DNA of 64,000 nucleotides from Levilactobacillus mulengensis. Lineage in GTDB: Bacteria; Bacillota; Bacilli; Lactobacillales; Lactobacillaceae. Of the stretch, positions 1 through 42,175 are shown one piece after another. The number at the start of each line of letters is the position of its first letter. Positions within the stretch are counted from its first letter, which is position 1. Position numbers and translations under genes: made by a program. The notes beneath the pieces were generated by a model, which made no database searches, had not been told where the DNA came from, and saw only the letters and a program-made list of their open reading frames with translations. Location of the stretch: positions 124,001 through 188,000 of the forward strand of contig NZ_RHNW01000005.1 in the NCBI RefSeq assembly GCF_003946045.1, read 5' to 3'.

Positions 1-725
1 GCATCATGATTGATGCCGGGTTGAGTGGCAAGAAGATTGAAAAGTTGATGGGCGATATCAACCGGAACATGAACGACGTGAACGCGTTGTTGGTCACCCA
101 TGAACACTCGGATCACCGGCAGGCTGTGGGCATTTTGGCGCGGCGGTACGAGCAGCTGAACGTGTACGCCAACAAGGGCACTTGGGACGCTATGGATAGC
201 AAAATTGGCAAGGTCGAATTGGCCCAAAAGCATTTGTTTGCGCCGGATACGGTCCAGACGTTCGGGGACATTGACGTGGAGAGTTTCTCCGTGTCCCACG
301 ATGCCGCCGAACCCCAATTCTACGCGATTCACTACCACGGGAAGACGTTTGTCATTTTGACGGATACCGGCTACGTTTCCGAGCACGTGGAAGGTGTGAT
401 CAAGGACGCCGACGCCTACCTGCTGGAGTGCAACCATGACGTGGAAATGCTGCGGATGGGCGAGTACTCGTGGCCACTGAAGCAGCGGATCCTGGGCGAC
501 AAGGGGCACTTGTCAAACGAAGAGGGCGCTGACGCGTTGATGGACGTGCTGGGCAACCGGACCAAGAAAATCTACCTCGGCCACCGGAGCCTGCACAATA
601 ACATGCAGTCACTGTGTCACCTGACCGTGGCCTCCATGATGGAAAACCGCGATTTCGGCGTCGGCCATGACTTCCAGCTGATCGATACCAATCCAGAAGA
701 AGCTACGCCACTGGTTGCGTTGTAG
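1..725 (+). CDS. walJ: WalJ/YycJ metallo-beta-lactamase-fold hydrolase, 5' end outside window
   Basis: Cytoplasmic metallo-beta-lactamase-fold hydrolase of the WalJ (YycJ, VicX) family, which accompanies the WalRK cell-wall two-component system. The metal-binding motif THEHSDH is at window codons near 95-115, and further His/Asp residues follow (HDAAEP, TDTGY, CNHD, GHLSNEEG, LGHRS), as expected for a dinuclear metal site. The frame is open to the left edge and the family normally has about 25 more N-terminal residues, so the start lies outside the window; the ATG at 6 is internal. The order walJ-htrA-rlmH is conserved in lactobacilli. The family is secure; its substrate is not established (a role linked to DNA or cell-wall homeostasis has been proposed). 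Confidence 0.92.
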   Translation, partial: IMIDAGLSGKKIEKLMGDINRNMNDVNALLVTHEHSDHRQAVGILARRYEQLNVYANKGTWDAMDSKIGKVELAQKHLFAPDTVQTFGDIDVESFSVSHDAAEPQFYAIHYHGKTFVILTDTGYVSEHVEGVIKDADAYLLECNHDVEMLRMGEYSWPLKQRILGDKGHLSNEEGADALMDVLGNRTKKIYLGHRSLHNNMQSLCHLTVASMMENRDFGVGHDFQLIDTNPEEATPLVAL

Positions 726-916
726 GCGAAATTGGTGAGTGGCAGATTGTTGGTTGGGATTAACTGAATCGAGTAAGAATAACCAGACAGATTAACAGCA
801 AGGCTACGCAATGTCACAACCTGCGTAAAGTCGAGCAGGCCCAACCAGTAAGTCACAAAACAAAACCAACAACCAAACAAGTAACCACCTAATTTACCAA
901 ACAACGACGAACCAGG

Positions 917-1104
917 GCTAAGCCAGTGTTAGCCGATAGGGCGGGCAAAATGGACTCAGCCGTGGGAATGCTCTTAGTGGCAGGTCTTGCCGCTTAGAGC
1001 ATTGGTATCTTTGAGACTCGGGTTGTGAGGCTCAAAGTAAGCTGGAAGACCGCACTTTGGCTTCCGGCGTCTGCCCACAGCGTCACGGTCCATTTTGACC
1101 GCCC
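917..1104 (-). ncRNA. Structured RNA candidate, copy 1 (two copies in window)
   Basis: This gap between walJ and htrA holds a 188-nt element that, on the minus strand, matches 41583-41767. It folds into a long closing helix (1088-1104 with 940-956, 17 positions, one mismatch), three internal hairpins and a terminal hairpin (917-935, GGCTAA/TTAGCC). The loop-proximal sequences CGTGACGCTGTGGG and CCCACGGCTGAG are identical in both copies, while the stems differ with pairing kept: AATGCTCT/AGAGCATT here against AATTACCT/AGGTAATT in copy 2. This pattern indicates selection on RNA structure. I do not recognise the family. The rest of 726-1190 shows no convincing gene. Confidence 0.7.
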
Positions 1105-1214
1105 GGCAAGGCGACCCAACACGTCTTACCCCAGGTTCTTCGTAAGATTTGGTAAACTTTAGGACTTCAGCACCGAATCGTCGAAAAAAATTCATACTCA
1201 CTCGTTAAGATGAA

Positions 1215-1292
1215 TATAATTAAAAAACGACGGCCGGAGCGGCAACGCCCCTGGCCGATAAATGAGGAGGGTTCGCGCGTTAGCGCAATGTG
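1215..1292 (+). promoter_or_regulatory. htrA promoter -10 and structured 5' leader
   Basis: A TATAAT hexamer lies at 1215-1220 without a clear -35. The leader then holds a hairpin (CGGCC 1231-1235 with GGCCG 1253-1257), a strong Shine-Dalgarno GAGGAGGG (1264-1271) and a second small hairpin GCGC-GTTA-GCGC (1275-1286). The Shine-Dalgarno is 21 nt from the ATG at 1293, too far for normal initiation, but the 12-nt hairpin would shorten the effective spacing to about 9 nt. Confidence 0.45.
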
Positions 1293-2639
1293 ATGGATAA
1301 CAATAACAACAATAATCAATTTGAAAATAATGATCAAAACCAAGCAACTCCAACGCCCACTCCGGAGCCACGAAAGCGGCAACGGGGCGGCCTGACCTTG
1401 ACCAAGGTGGCCGTGACGGCACTGGTCGCCGGGCTGTTAGGTGGGGGTGCCGCTTACGGCGGAATCACCTACCTGAATAATAGTGGTATCAATGATACAG
1501 CGGTGCCCGCCGGCAGTAATAAGAGCGGCAACGCATCGACGTCTAACGTGACGGTCAACGTGTCTAGCCAGTCCACCAAGGCCTTTAACCAGGTCAAGGG
1601 GGCCATGGTCTCCGTGATTAATTTACAAAAGCAAAACAGTAGTAGCAGTACGCTGGGGCAACTGTTTGGCGCCGAATCTTCTGGCTCGAATTCCAAGTCG
1701 AAATCCGAACTGGAGGAAGCGTCCGAAGGGTCCGGGGTCGTTTACAAGAAGGACGGCAATACCGCCTACATCGTGACGAACAATCACGTGGTGTCCGGGT
1801 CGTCCGCTCTGCGCGTGGTGACCAGCTCGGGTAAGCAGCTGCAAGCGAAATTAGTCGGGAAGGATTCCGTCACCGACTTGGCTGTCTTGAAGGTCAACGG
1901 GTCTGATTTGAAGACCGTTGCGTCGTTCGGGAATTCCGATAAGGTCAAGGTCGGTGAAACCGCCTTGGCTATCGGGTCACCACTGGGTAGCCAGTATGCG
2001 ACGTCACTAACGGAAGGGATCATTTCCGCTAAGAAACGGACGATTGAAACCACGAACTCATCCGGGACTCAGACGGGGAACGCCACGGTTATCCAAACCG
2101 ACGCTGCCATCAACCCGGGGAACTCGGGTGGTGCGCTGATCAACGTCGGCGGCCAAGTCGTCGGGATCACCTCTTCCAAGATTGCTAGCGATGCTGAAGG
2201 GACCAGCGTTGAGGGGATGGGTTTTGCCATTCCATCAAACGAAGTTGTCAACATCATCAATCAATTGGTCAAGAAGGGGAAAGTTGTGCGGCCAGCGTTA
2301 GCGATTACCTACGTGGACCTCGCCAACGTTTCCAGTGCCCAACAGAAGTCGATCTTGAAGCTGCCATCTAATGTGGAGAGCGGGGTCGTTGTGATGAGCG
2401 CCAGCGCCGGATCACCAGCGAAGAAGGCTGGGCTGACCAAGTACGACGTCATCACGGCCATGGGCGGTCACCAGATTTCCGACCAGTCCACGCTGCGTGA
2501 CATCCTGTACACTTACAAGTTGAATGATACGGTCTCGATGACCTACTATCACAATGGCAAGAAGAAGACGGCCAACGTCAAATTGACCGAGACGTCTTCT
2601 CAGTTGAGCTCCTCAACGTCAGCCAACTCAGAAAGCTAA
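1293..2639 (+). CDS. htrA: HtrA/DegP-type membrane-anchored serine protease
   Basis: Surface quality-control protease that degrades misfolded exported proteins. It has a short Asn/Gln-rich cytoplasmic N-terminus, one transmembrane anchor (about residues 37-58), a Ser/Asn-rich linker, a trypsin-like domain with His in TNNHVV (about 166), Asp in VTDLAVL (about 196) and Ser in NPGNSGGAL (about 279), and a C-terminal PDZ domain (about 340-425). The length (448 aa) is usual for Firmicute HtrA. The frame is closed by a TAG at 1281, so the start is either GTG 1290 or ATG 1293; both lie unusually far from the Shine-Dalgarno. A terminator follows directly. All catalytic residues are present. Confidence 0.96.
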   Translation: MDNNNNNNQFENNDQNQATPTPTPEPRKRQRGGLTLTKVAVTALVAGLLGGGAAYGGITYLNNSGINDTAVPAGSNKSGNASTSNVTVNVSSQSTKAFNQVKGAMVSVINLQKQNSSSSTLGQLFGAESSGSNSKSKSELEEASEGSGVVYKKDGNTAYIVTNNHVVSGSSALRVVTSSGKQLQAKLVGKDSVTDLAVLKVNGSDLKTVASFGNSDKVKVGETALAIGSPLGSQYATSLTEGIISAKKRTIETTNSSGTQTGNATVIQTDAAINPGNSGGALINVGGQVVGITSSKIASDAEGTSVEGMGFAIPSNEVVNIINQLVKKGKVVRPALAITYVDLANVSSAQQKSILKLPSNVESGVVVMSASAGSPAKKAGLTKYDVITAMGGHQISDQSTLRDILYTYKLNDTVSMTYYHNGKKKTANVKLTETSSQLSSSTSANSES

Positions 2640-40864: not shown

Positions 40865-41560
40865 TTGGAACCAATCTATCGGTATTTTGTGCAACCACAG
40901 ATTAATACGGAAACGAAAACAATTTTTGGTTATGAACTCTTGATGAAGCAATTGACCCCTGACGGTTGGCGTTTACCGGAATCTTTTTCCGCTATCGACC
41001 CACAGATCGTGGCAGACTTGCTCGTGGCAACCACGAAAGTTCTGTCGCCAAAGGTTCGGTATTGTTCAGTAAATGTTAACCGTGAGCAATTAATGACGAC
41101 GTCAATTGCGTCCGCTATCACAAAAAGCCAGGAACAGATTTATCCGACGCGTTTAGTCGTTGAGCTCACCGAAGATGATGGACCACAAAAGTATGCGGTC
41201 CAAGACCTGATTCCCCAGCTGAAAAAATTCATTGATCAGGGGATGGAACTGTCGCTAGATGACGTTGGCACGGGTGATAATTATTTCACAGATATCCAAG
41301 ATTTATTGCCGCTGGCGTCCGAAGTTAAATTTGCGTTACAAAACTTCAATCAAGGTTTCAGCGATCCCCAGATTCAGAAGCAGGTTCATTTCTGGCGCGC
41401 CATAACGGCAGAGTATGGGTTGCGCTTGGTGCTGGAAGGCATCGAGAATCACGAGGACAGCGTGCTGAGCAAGCGGTTAGGTATTCGGCTGAAGCAAGGC
41501 TACTACTTCAGCAAGCCGCGCCTGCTCAAGCTTCCCGGCGACTCATTTGACGCGGGTTAA
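40865..41560 (+). CDS. Stand-alone EAL-domain protein (degenerate)
   Basis: 231 aa, TTG 40865 with GAGGGGG upstream. The whole protein is one EAL domain, the c-di-GMP phosphodiesterase fold. The signature EAL reads ELL (GYELLMK). Later motifs are present: NVN, VELTE, LDDVGTG, LEGIE and QGYYFSKP. The KID segment is altered (EVKFAL), so a metal-site residue may be missing and catalysis is uncertain; it may bind c-di-GMP or act by protein contact. No GGDEF protein is in the window. The structured RNA copy 2 follows 22 nt after the stop codon. Confidence 0.86.
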   Translation: MEPIYRYFVQPQINTETKTIFGYELLMKQLTPDGWRLPESFSAIDPQIVADLLVATTKVLSPKVRYCSVNVNREQLMTTSIASAITKSQEQIYPTRLVVELTEDDGPQKYAVQDLIPQLKKFIDQGMELSLDDVGTGDNYFTDIQDLLPLASEVKFALQNFNQGFSDPQIQKQVHFWRAITAEYGLRLVLEGIENHEDSVLSKRLGIRLKQGYYFSKPRLLKLPGDSFDAG

Positions 41561-41582
41561 ACGAGTTGTTACTTACGCCTCC

Positions 41583-41767
41583 GGGCTGGTGAAAATGGGC
41601 CGTGACGCTGTGGGCGCCCGCCCGAAGCCTGAGGGGCGGTCTTCGGGCTTACTTTGAGCCGAAAAGCGCGTCTCAAAGATAGCAATTACCTAAGCGGGAG
41701 ACCCGCTAAGGTAATTCCCACGGCTGAGCCCATTTTCACCAGCCCTGCGGCTGACACTGATTTAGCC
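41583..41767 (+). ncRNA. Structured RNA candidate, copy 2
   Basis: Closing helix of 18 perfect base pairs (41583-41600 with 41728-41745), then hairpins 41620-41648 (GCCCGAAG/CTTCGGGC), 41652-41678 (CTTTGAG/CTCAAAG) and 41684-41716 (AATTACCT/AGGTAATT with an inner GCGGG/CCCGC), and terminal hairpin 41749-41767. The loops near the closing helix are identical to copy 1 at 917-1104. A further hairpin is at 41782-41807 (TCACCTAAG/CTTAGGTGA). The rest of the gap to 42175 is AT-rich without a gene. Confidence 0.72.
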
Positions 41768-42175
41768 TGTAAAACGCATCGTCACCTAAGTCTTTTGGCT
41801 TAGGTGATACCTTGAGTTTACTCCAGGGGTTCGGTGGTTGCTAATAACTTGACCCCGAACTTTCAAAGCAACTGGCATAAGCTTCAAAATAACAAAATTA
41901 ACTGATGCAACGTGTATTGTCTCTGGGTACGCGTTTTTTCTGTGCAGTAAAACGGTTAATTGTAGATAATAAAAATATTTTATACCTGACGGTGGTATTT
42001 AATGATTACTGTAACTATAATGGGGCTAGATAAGTTGACTACTGGTAACTATTGCAAAAATAATAATGGGCGACTAACCATTAAATCGGGATAAAGTGGT
42101 CAACAATATTTACTTATAATCCAGCAAAATAATGGATTCATTAAAAATCGATTTGGGGAGAAAGGGCGACGATGG

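Follow-up and report, generated by a model that had tools for sequence, protein, structure and literature searches.

The two structured stretches of Levilactobacillus mulengensis DNA described here lie within a segment of 64,000 bp (the window) and are, with near certainty, copies of a dispersed high-copy repeat family. The repeat consists of a long stem, whose outer arms are locus-specific, crowned by a conserved core that measures some 100-140 nt and contains two or three inner hairpins. Beyond the arms that the copies share, many copies have a 3′ flank that mirrors their own 5′ host flank as an imperfect reverse complement, coding sequence included. We give about even chances to the explanation that the repeat is a selfish, hairpin-capped intergenic element whose arms were made by fold-back template switching.

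The two copies in the window

Copy 1 consists of a type A core with its closing helix at positions 933-1115 of the minus strand and scores 167.5 bits with R1, a covariance model built on 44 copies of the repeat. Pfam identifies its neighbours as a gene for a protein of the metallo-β-lactamase fold on one side (6-725, plus strand, PF12706) and a trypsin/PDZ, HtrA-like protease gene on the other (1290-2639, plus strand, PF13365 and PF13180). The outer 5′ arm (1116-1163, minus strand) is host-side flank from the region upstream of the HtrA-like gene, and the outer 3′ arm (888-932, minus strand) is an imperfect reverse-complement copy of it; the two pair over 48 and 45 nt, respectively, with an extension score of 47, against a mean of 5.4 for swapped pairs elsewhere. 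Copy 2, also of type A (41574-41750, plus strand, 201.1 bits with R1), starts 13 bp past the stop codon of its upstream neighbour, a gene coding for an EAL-domain protein (40865-41560, plus strand; PF00563, E 2.7e-20). Its outer 5′ arm (41539-41573, plus strand) takes in the last codons and the stop of that gene, and pairs weakly, with a score of 9, with the outer 3′ arm (41751-41781, plus strand). A separate short hairpin, TCACCTAAG...CTTAGGTGA, lacking a T tract, is found right 3′ of copy 2 at 41782-41808.

Pairwise alignment showed that the two copies can be aligned over their entire length. The original prediction had proposed a common architecture, and a closing helix with three inner hairpins is indeed present in both folds, the minimum free energies being -114 kcal/mol for a 270-nt stretch with copy 1 and -144 kcal/mol for a 285-nt stretch with copy 2. 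The loops CGTGACGCTGTGGG and CCCACGGCTGAG are identical in both, and the alignment and the folds bear out the statement that the helices differ between the copies at matched positions on both sides. When the window was searched with R1 at E values up to 1, only copies 1 and 2 were found, two additional rows corresponding to their reverse strands. The terminator-like sites detected all fall outside the two copies, and no promoter-like site was found upstream of either copy on its own strand in the scanned stretches.

A dispersed family of several core types

The structure had been thought to exist in two copies. In the genome to which the window belongs (G000, 3,110,930 bp in 36 contigs) R1 yielded at least 149 matches, a number that is a floor because 150 of 1702 candidates were scored, and with this a two-copy RNA gene was rejected. 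A DNA search of the same genome recovered at least 40 near-full copies, copy 2 among them. The pattern CCGTGACGCTGTGGG, with up to two mismatches, occurs there 58 times on the forward and 52 times on the reverse strand, where the reversed control occurs once each, and a second pattern across the middle hairpin occurs 42 and 41 times (0 and 0 for the control). Contig C12 of this genome (369,699 bp), which was scanned in full with R1, gave 105 rows at E 0.001. They represent 80 non-overlapping copies once reverse-strand doubles are removed: 31 above 90 bits, which we call type A, and 49 weaker relatives. The spans of the model alone account for about 4% of the DNA of C12, and the genome total would be several hundred if this contig were representative, though density is uneven. 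The window itself is sparse in repeats, with 2 per 64 kb as compared to 80 per 370 kb of C12.

Cores can be assigned to type A, type B, and others. Types A and B have the middle hairpin in common, as well as the arms in tandem arrays, while the B core is longer and different; these arrays are seen in the order A-X-B-X. High-scoring A copies in G000 share about 25 nt of arm. Copies in plus-then-minus order, such as those at 83774 and 84191 of contig C31 of G000, often lie tail to tail in one intergenic region, and tail-to-tail pairs are present in loci of other genera too. In another genus (G112:C4, 201759-202465) three cores in tandem with a period of 168 bp are followed by one in the opposite orientation.

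The search of Lactobacillaceae genomes with a covariance model, which had been proposed as a check, uncovered further homologues. At E 1e-5 with stricter filters R1 matched 60 of 251 genomes of this family, belonging to 10 of 40 genera, and at E 1e-6, with at most 78 candidates scored per genome, it matched 33 of the 35 Levilactobacillus genomes. A second model, R2, built on 15 sequences of the two-hairpin form, had matches in 23 of 395 Lactobacillales genomes and 7 of 80 genera, all of them Lactobacillaceae, and none in the genomes of this set beyond that family. A search of named genomes with an exact pattern, which may skip records close to that of the window, gave 69 stretches, all in Levilactobacillus wangkuiensis and L. 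lanxiensis. Distant copies keep the core, with variants (GGCTGGAACG..., TTTGAGCC...GTCTCAAAG, CTAAGCGG...CCGCTAAG, ...GCTGAGCC), and their arms are mutually unrelated sequences, each of which is self-complementary. A comparison with Rfam had also been called for, and the repeat reached no known family of Rfam 15: there were no matches in the whole window at the gathering cut-off, relaxing the threshold to E 5 for the 281 bp surrounding copy 2 added only three matches at chance level, and the element in distant loci (L194-L215) had no match in 20 of 22 cases.

Reversed host sequence in the outer arms

The extension of the arms into host DNA was scored by anchoring the comparison at the ends of the element. 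For 66 type A copies, a set that counts orthologues in more than one species, own pairs scored 19.5 on average and swapped pairs 5.4 (MWU p 4e-23). Thirty-two of these copies exceed the 95th percentile of the swapped pairs, 13 of 31 and 19 of 35 in the individual species, and the median extent is 52 nt. For the other types the corresponding numbers are 25 of 49 and 26 of 54. In an initial test only 4 of the 66 passed the 99% level; this test skipped the 30 nt beside the element and nearly hid the signal, which was recovered by anchoring. The match between inverted flanks is far from perfect, and a fold-back reading therefore needs error-prone copying or great age.

One gene end was tracked through the genus (32 of 35 genomes matched, 30 loci examined) by pairing a segment made of the final 60 coding bases and 25 more with the downstream DNA. 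Four genomes have an A or B core at this place, and their pairing is 50-60; the core is of type A in G015, G000, and G006, the last of which has a B core further on, and of type B in G029. Among the 26 without an A/B core, in 19 of which an apparent next gene is present already within 60 bases past the stop, the pairing is 17-29 in 25 and 49 in G002. At this gene end (L341) G002 has a different hairpin type of the same make, with a third core type, and the reversed coding end is present. The reversed copy reaches 45-65 bases before the stop-codon end in the four A/B genomes and 29 in G002, and shuffling the downstream DNA of these five genomes gave means of 24-26 and maxima of 33-39 against the observed 49-60. 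As the four A/B genomes share one inherited reversed copy, the locus amounts to two independent cases, that of G002 included. A pre-existing palindrome acting as the target was rejected because, of the 26 genomes that lack an A/B core, all but one pair at 29 or less. Downstream of the same gene end G014, which has no A/B core, carries a core-like motif, and a short CCATGGGGTTGTCGTGGCTGGG..., perhaps another repeat family, follows the gene in G030, G025, and G003 (L338, L339, and L340, respectively) as well as in G006.

The outer arms decay. In the 14 of 18 orthologous pairs of C12 and G015 that were scored, 84 changes are one-sided and 3 are double Watson-Crick changes, numbers that become 78 and 1 when the doubtful orthologue at C12 2868 is removed. 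Since one-sided changes far exceed double ones, the arms resemble relics and not a maintained pairing, and selection maintaining outer-arm pairing was rejected.

A fold-back model for the spread of the repeat

In the model that we favour, a growing DNA strand would switch template into a copy of the core elsewhere and copy that core. The strand would then fold back on the stem of the core and copy its own upstream strand, thereby producing the reversed gene end, and would finally return. Repeated rounds of folding back, or recombination through the arms, could generate the tandem A-X-B-X arrays, and the same processes may keep the stems matched by introducing double changes in single events. 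Four observations led us to infer this mode of spread: coding sequence is present in reversed form, tandem arrays follow the order A-X-B-X, double changes have few intermediates, and the copies are biased in orientation. According to PMC8794818, hairpins are both created and mended by template switching. A bolder version, which we offer only tentatively, is that of a self-extending mobile hairpin, a conserved core that spreads by fold-back replication, needs neither a transposase nor a reverse transcriptase of its own, stamps a reversed copy of the flanking gene end at new sites, and has given rise to hundreds of loci per genome in part of one bacterial family.

Turnover between sister species and the question of a transposase

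Contig C12 and contig C2 of G015 are syntenic with about 92% identity, and the region 1-100 kb of the latter is mostly 92-97% identical to G029:C2. The arrangement of A and B motifs in orthologous intergenic regions, tallied with fuzzy motifs on which the counts depend, is the same in 22, different in 19, one-sided in 2, and without motifs in 133 regions for C12 and G015; the respective numbers for G015 and G029 are 6, 13, 4, and 42. Of the latter four one-sided sites, one was cleanly inserted or lost, another is a spurious match of the motif, and a third has a deleted core; one of the one-only sites of a separate comparison was false, being located at the border of a 20-kb chunk. At C12 137405, G015 67353, and G029 240541 the same locus-specific arms enclose an A core in one species and a B core in its sister. 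At G015 57841, G029 266173, and C12 59367 an A core and a repeated arm-plus-spacer precede a remnant of B where the relative has B alone. The original prediction of an RNA as opposed to a simple repeat is not supported: the copies are interspersed in high number, and the repeat undergoes insertion, loss, duplication, and exchange of cores.

One insertion could be polarised. The site at about 10,860 of G015:C2 is empty, G029 carries there a B element about 345-350 bp long that is flanked by TTTCT at each junction, a feature of this single site, and a homologous B element occupies the matching position in G000. All eight outgroup genomes that have both flanks are empty, with 17-144 bp between them; six more genomes that match one flank were excluded from this count. 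Most simply, the B element was gained before the split of the three species and precisely lost in G015. The TTTCT pair could be the target-site duplication of an ordinary transposase. The tail of the insertion has no clear copy of the local flank, and fold-back copying is for this reason not universal.

The main rival explanation, unlikely in our judgement but stronger than those that follow, supposes a non-autonomous MITE-like element that is mobilised by a transposase in trans and that owes its arms and core swaps to later recombination and quasi-palindrome correction. The clean filled and empty site with TTTCT at both junctions agrees with it, as do the dispersed, intergenic copies of about 180-350 bp and the inner arms common to high-scoring A copies, as in a conventional element; MITEs are short, folded, and trans-mobilised according to PMC3049150. 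However, what is conserved across types and genera is the apex and not the ends, and the arms differ. The Y1 transposase (PF01797) is encoded in 23 of the 35 genomes of the genus without tracking the copy number of the repeat, is absent from eight genomes with at least 20 element matches (G002, G003, G017, G018, G020, G026, G029, and G033), and occurs five times in G012, where R1 finds no match. R1 had no match at the five Y1 (IS200/IS605-type) loci of G000 either, and an IS200/IS605 origin was rejected on both counts, the comparison covering IS elements of the Y1 kind. One of these five loci (L061, 1489-3258) carries an IS605-type pair, a TnpA of 139 amino acids and a TnpB-like protein of 430 amino acids, named by resemblance.

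A blastn search with copy 2, which distant types would escape, matched none of 72,556 plasmid and 50,697 phage records, and R1 had no match on three Lactobacillaceae plasmids with a total of 126,743 bp. Phage or plasmid carriage was rejected on these results; viral contigs contain the core motif once in exact form, an occurrence that its surroundings led us to attribute to chance. The reverse transcriptase domain PF00078 (RVT_1) is found in 10 of the 35 genomes of the genus, does not track the repeat either, and has no match in G000; reverse transcription by a retroelement was rejected on this last result.

Covariation of the core and the possibility of an RNA

Over 147 copies of the core (146 distinct), 97.8% of the cells are paired and 738 are double-changed, against 88.8% and 148 in column shuffles. 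Chance is excluded because none of 500 shuffles attained the observed pairing or double-change value. Double changes affect 41 of the 60 core pairs, so the conserved covarying structure anticipated from two copies is strongly supported. An RNA transcribed from the plus strand is expected to have G.U mismatches in excess of A.C. The 35 transition-covarying core pairs have 103 A.C and 46 G.U, and RNA status is therefore not demonstrated by the covariation; 47 of the 103 A.C mismatches come from three positions, and the 35-pair set does not include two G.U pairs that are nearly fixed. A tRNA control, on only six tRNAs, gave G.U 10 and A.C 0. By RNA energy, the named (plus) strand is the more stable one in only 35 of the 147 copies.

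Comparison of 17 orthologous copy pairs showed 953 of 1001 base pairs to be identical. Ten have double Watson-Crick changes, 36 have one-sided changes (16 A.C, 10 G.T, and 10 other), and 2 are altered on both sides without Watson-Crick restoration. Unpaired sites differ at 118 of 962 positions while about 3% of paired core sites have changed, and this greater conservation of the stems makes a function possible. The mismatches of the outer arms, counted in pairings scoring 15 or more only, are G.T 129 and A.C 41, with G.T 159 and A.C 99 for B arms; this excess of G.T, which possibly comes from strand composition, points the opposite way from the core in the strand test.

Placement was analysed for the 31 type A copies of C12, with gene boundaries taken from genes called by a simple script. 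In 25 of them 9-63 bp separate the 5′ end from a gene boundary; the neighbour on the 5′ side is a gene end in 19 of the 31 and a gene start in 12, and the 3′ side faces 106-1144 bp of non-coding DNA. Copies above 185 bits are co-oriented with the local GC skew in 54 of 65 cases (14/14, 18/20, and 22/31 in three species), counts that are not independent because the species share orthologues, and with the direction of the gene in 38 of 65. Lower-scoring copies are co-oriented with the skew in 26 of 50 cases; the use of bit score as a proxy for the age of a copy is an assumption.

A cis-acting structured RNA, either a 3′-UTR or a leader, that was multiplied and then kept by selection for a role such as transcript stability or termination would account for the strong covariation, the slow change at paired sites, the closeness of 25 of the 31 type A copies to a gene boundary, and the preponderance of G.T over A.C in the outer arms. 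We nevertheless consider it improbable, given that the core has no G.U excess, that the 5′ side faces gene starts as well as gene ends, that A and B cores are interchangeable while the outer arms decay, and that the terminator-like sites do not coincide with the window copies. A family of trans-acting small RNA genes with their own promoters would suit the compact conserved fold but is very hard to reconcile with the number of copies in one genome and with the lack of promoter-like sites upstream of the two window copies in the stretches scanned. Most likely, the repeat is selfish or neutral and influences the transcripts next to it as a side effect.

Relation to known repeats

The lactobacilli gain a repeat class of which our literature searches listed no description, and its arrangement differs between sister species. 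The reversed ends of neighbouring genes hint at an unusual way of spreading DNA within a genome. If the fold-back model were true, the repeat would constitute a traceable record of replication template switching as a route for the spread of DNA. Long covarying stems would then arise without selection on an RNA, a reason for caution in RNA discovery based on covariation.

ERIC and the EFAR repeats of Enterococcus are large imperfect palindromes located between genes, like the repeat described here, which by its features may broadly be of the same kind as BOX, REP, and MITE repeats. The BOX element of Streptococcus pneumoniae is likewise interspersed, folded, and modular, with a variable number of inner modules according to PMC3049150, a likeness of architecture alone; unlike BOX as presented there, our repeat has outer arms that are specific to the locus and often contain host sequence in reverse, and one set of arms can enclose entirely different cores. 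REP sequences, organized in BIMEs and associated with a RAYT transposase, also exceed 100 palindromic copies per genome and form oppositely oriented pairs, according to PMC2817692. REP has an associated RAYT there, whereas Y1 genes do not track our repeat, and REP sequences are 20-40 bp long in PMC3733652, compared to about 180 nt with inner hairpins here. In the hairpins attributed to template switching, reverse-complement copying builds and mends stems as we propose for the repeat, although those in PMC8794818 belong to RNA genes and ours to a dispersed repeat family. As far as these partial descriptions of BOX, REP, and MITE elements go, it is the locus-specific arms, apparently copied from the host, that set the repeat apart.
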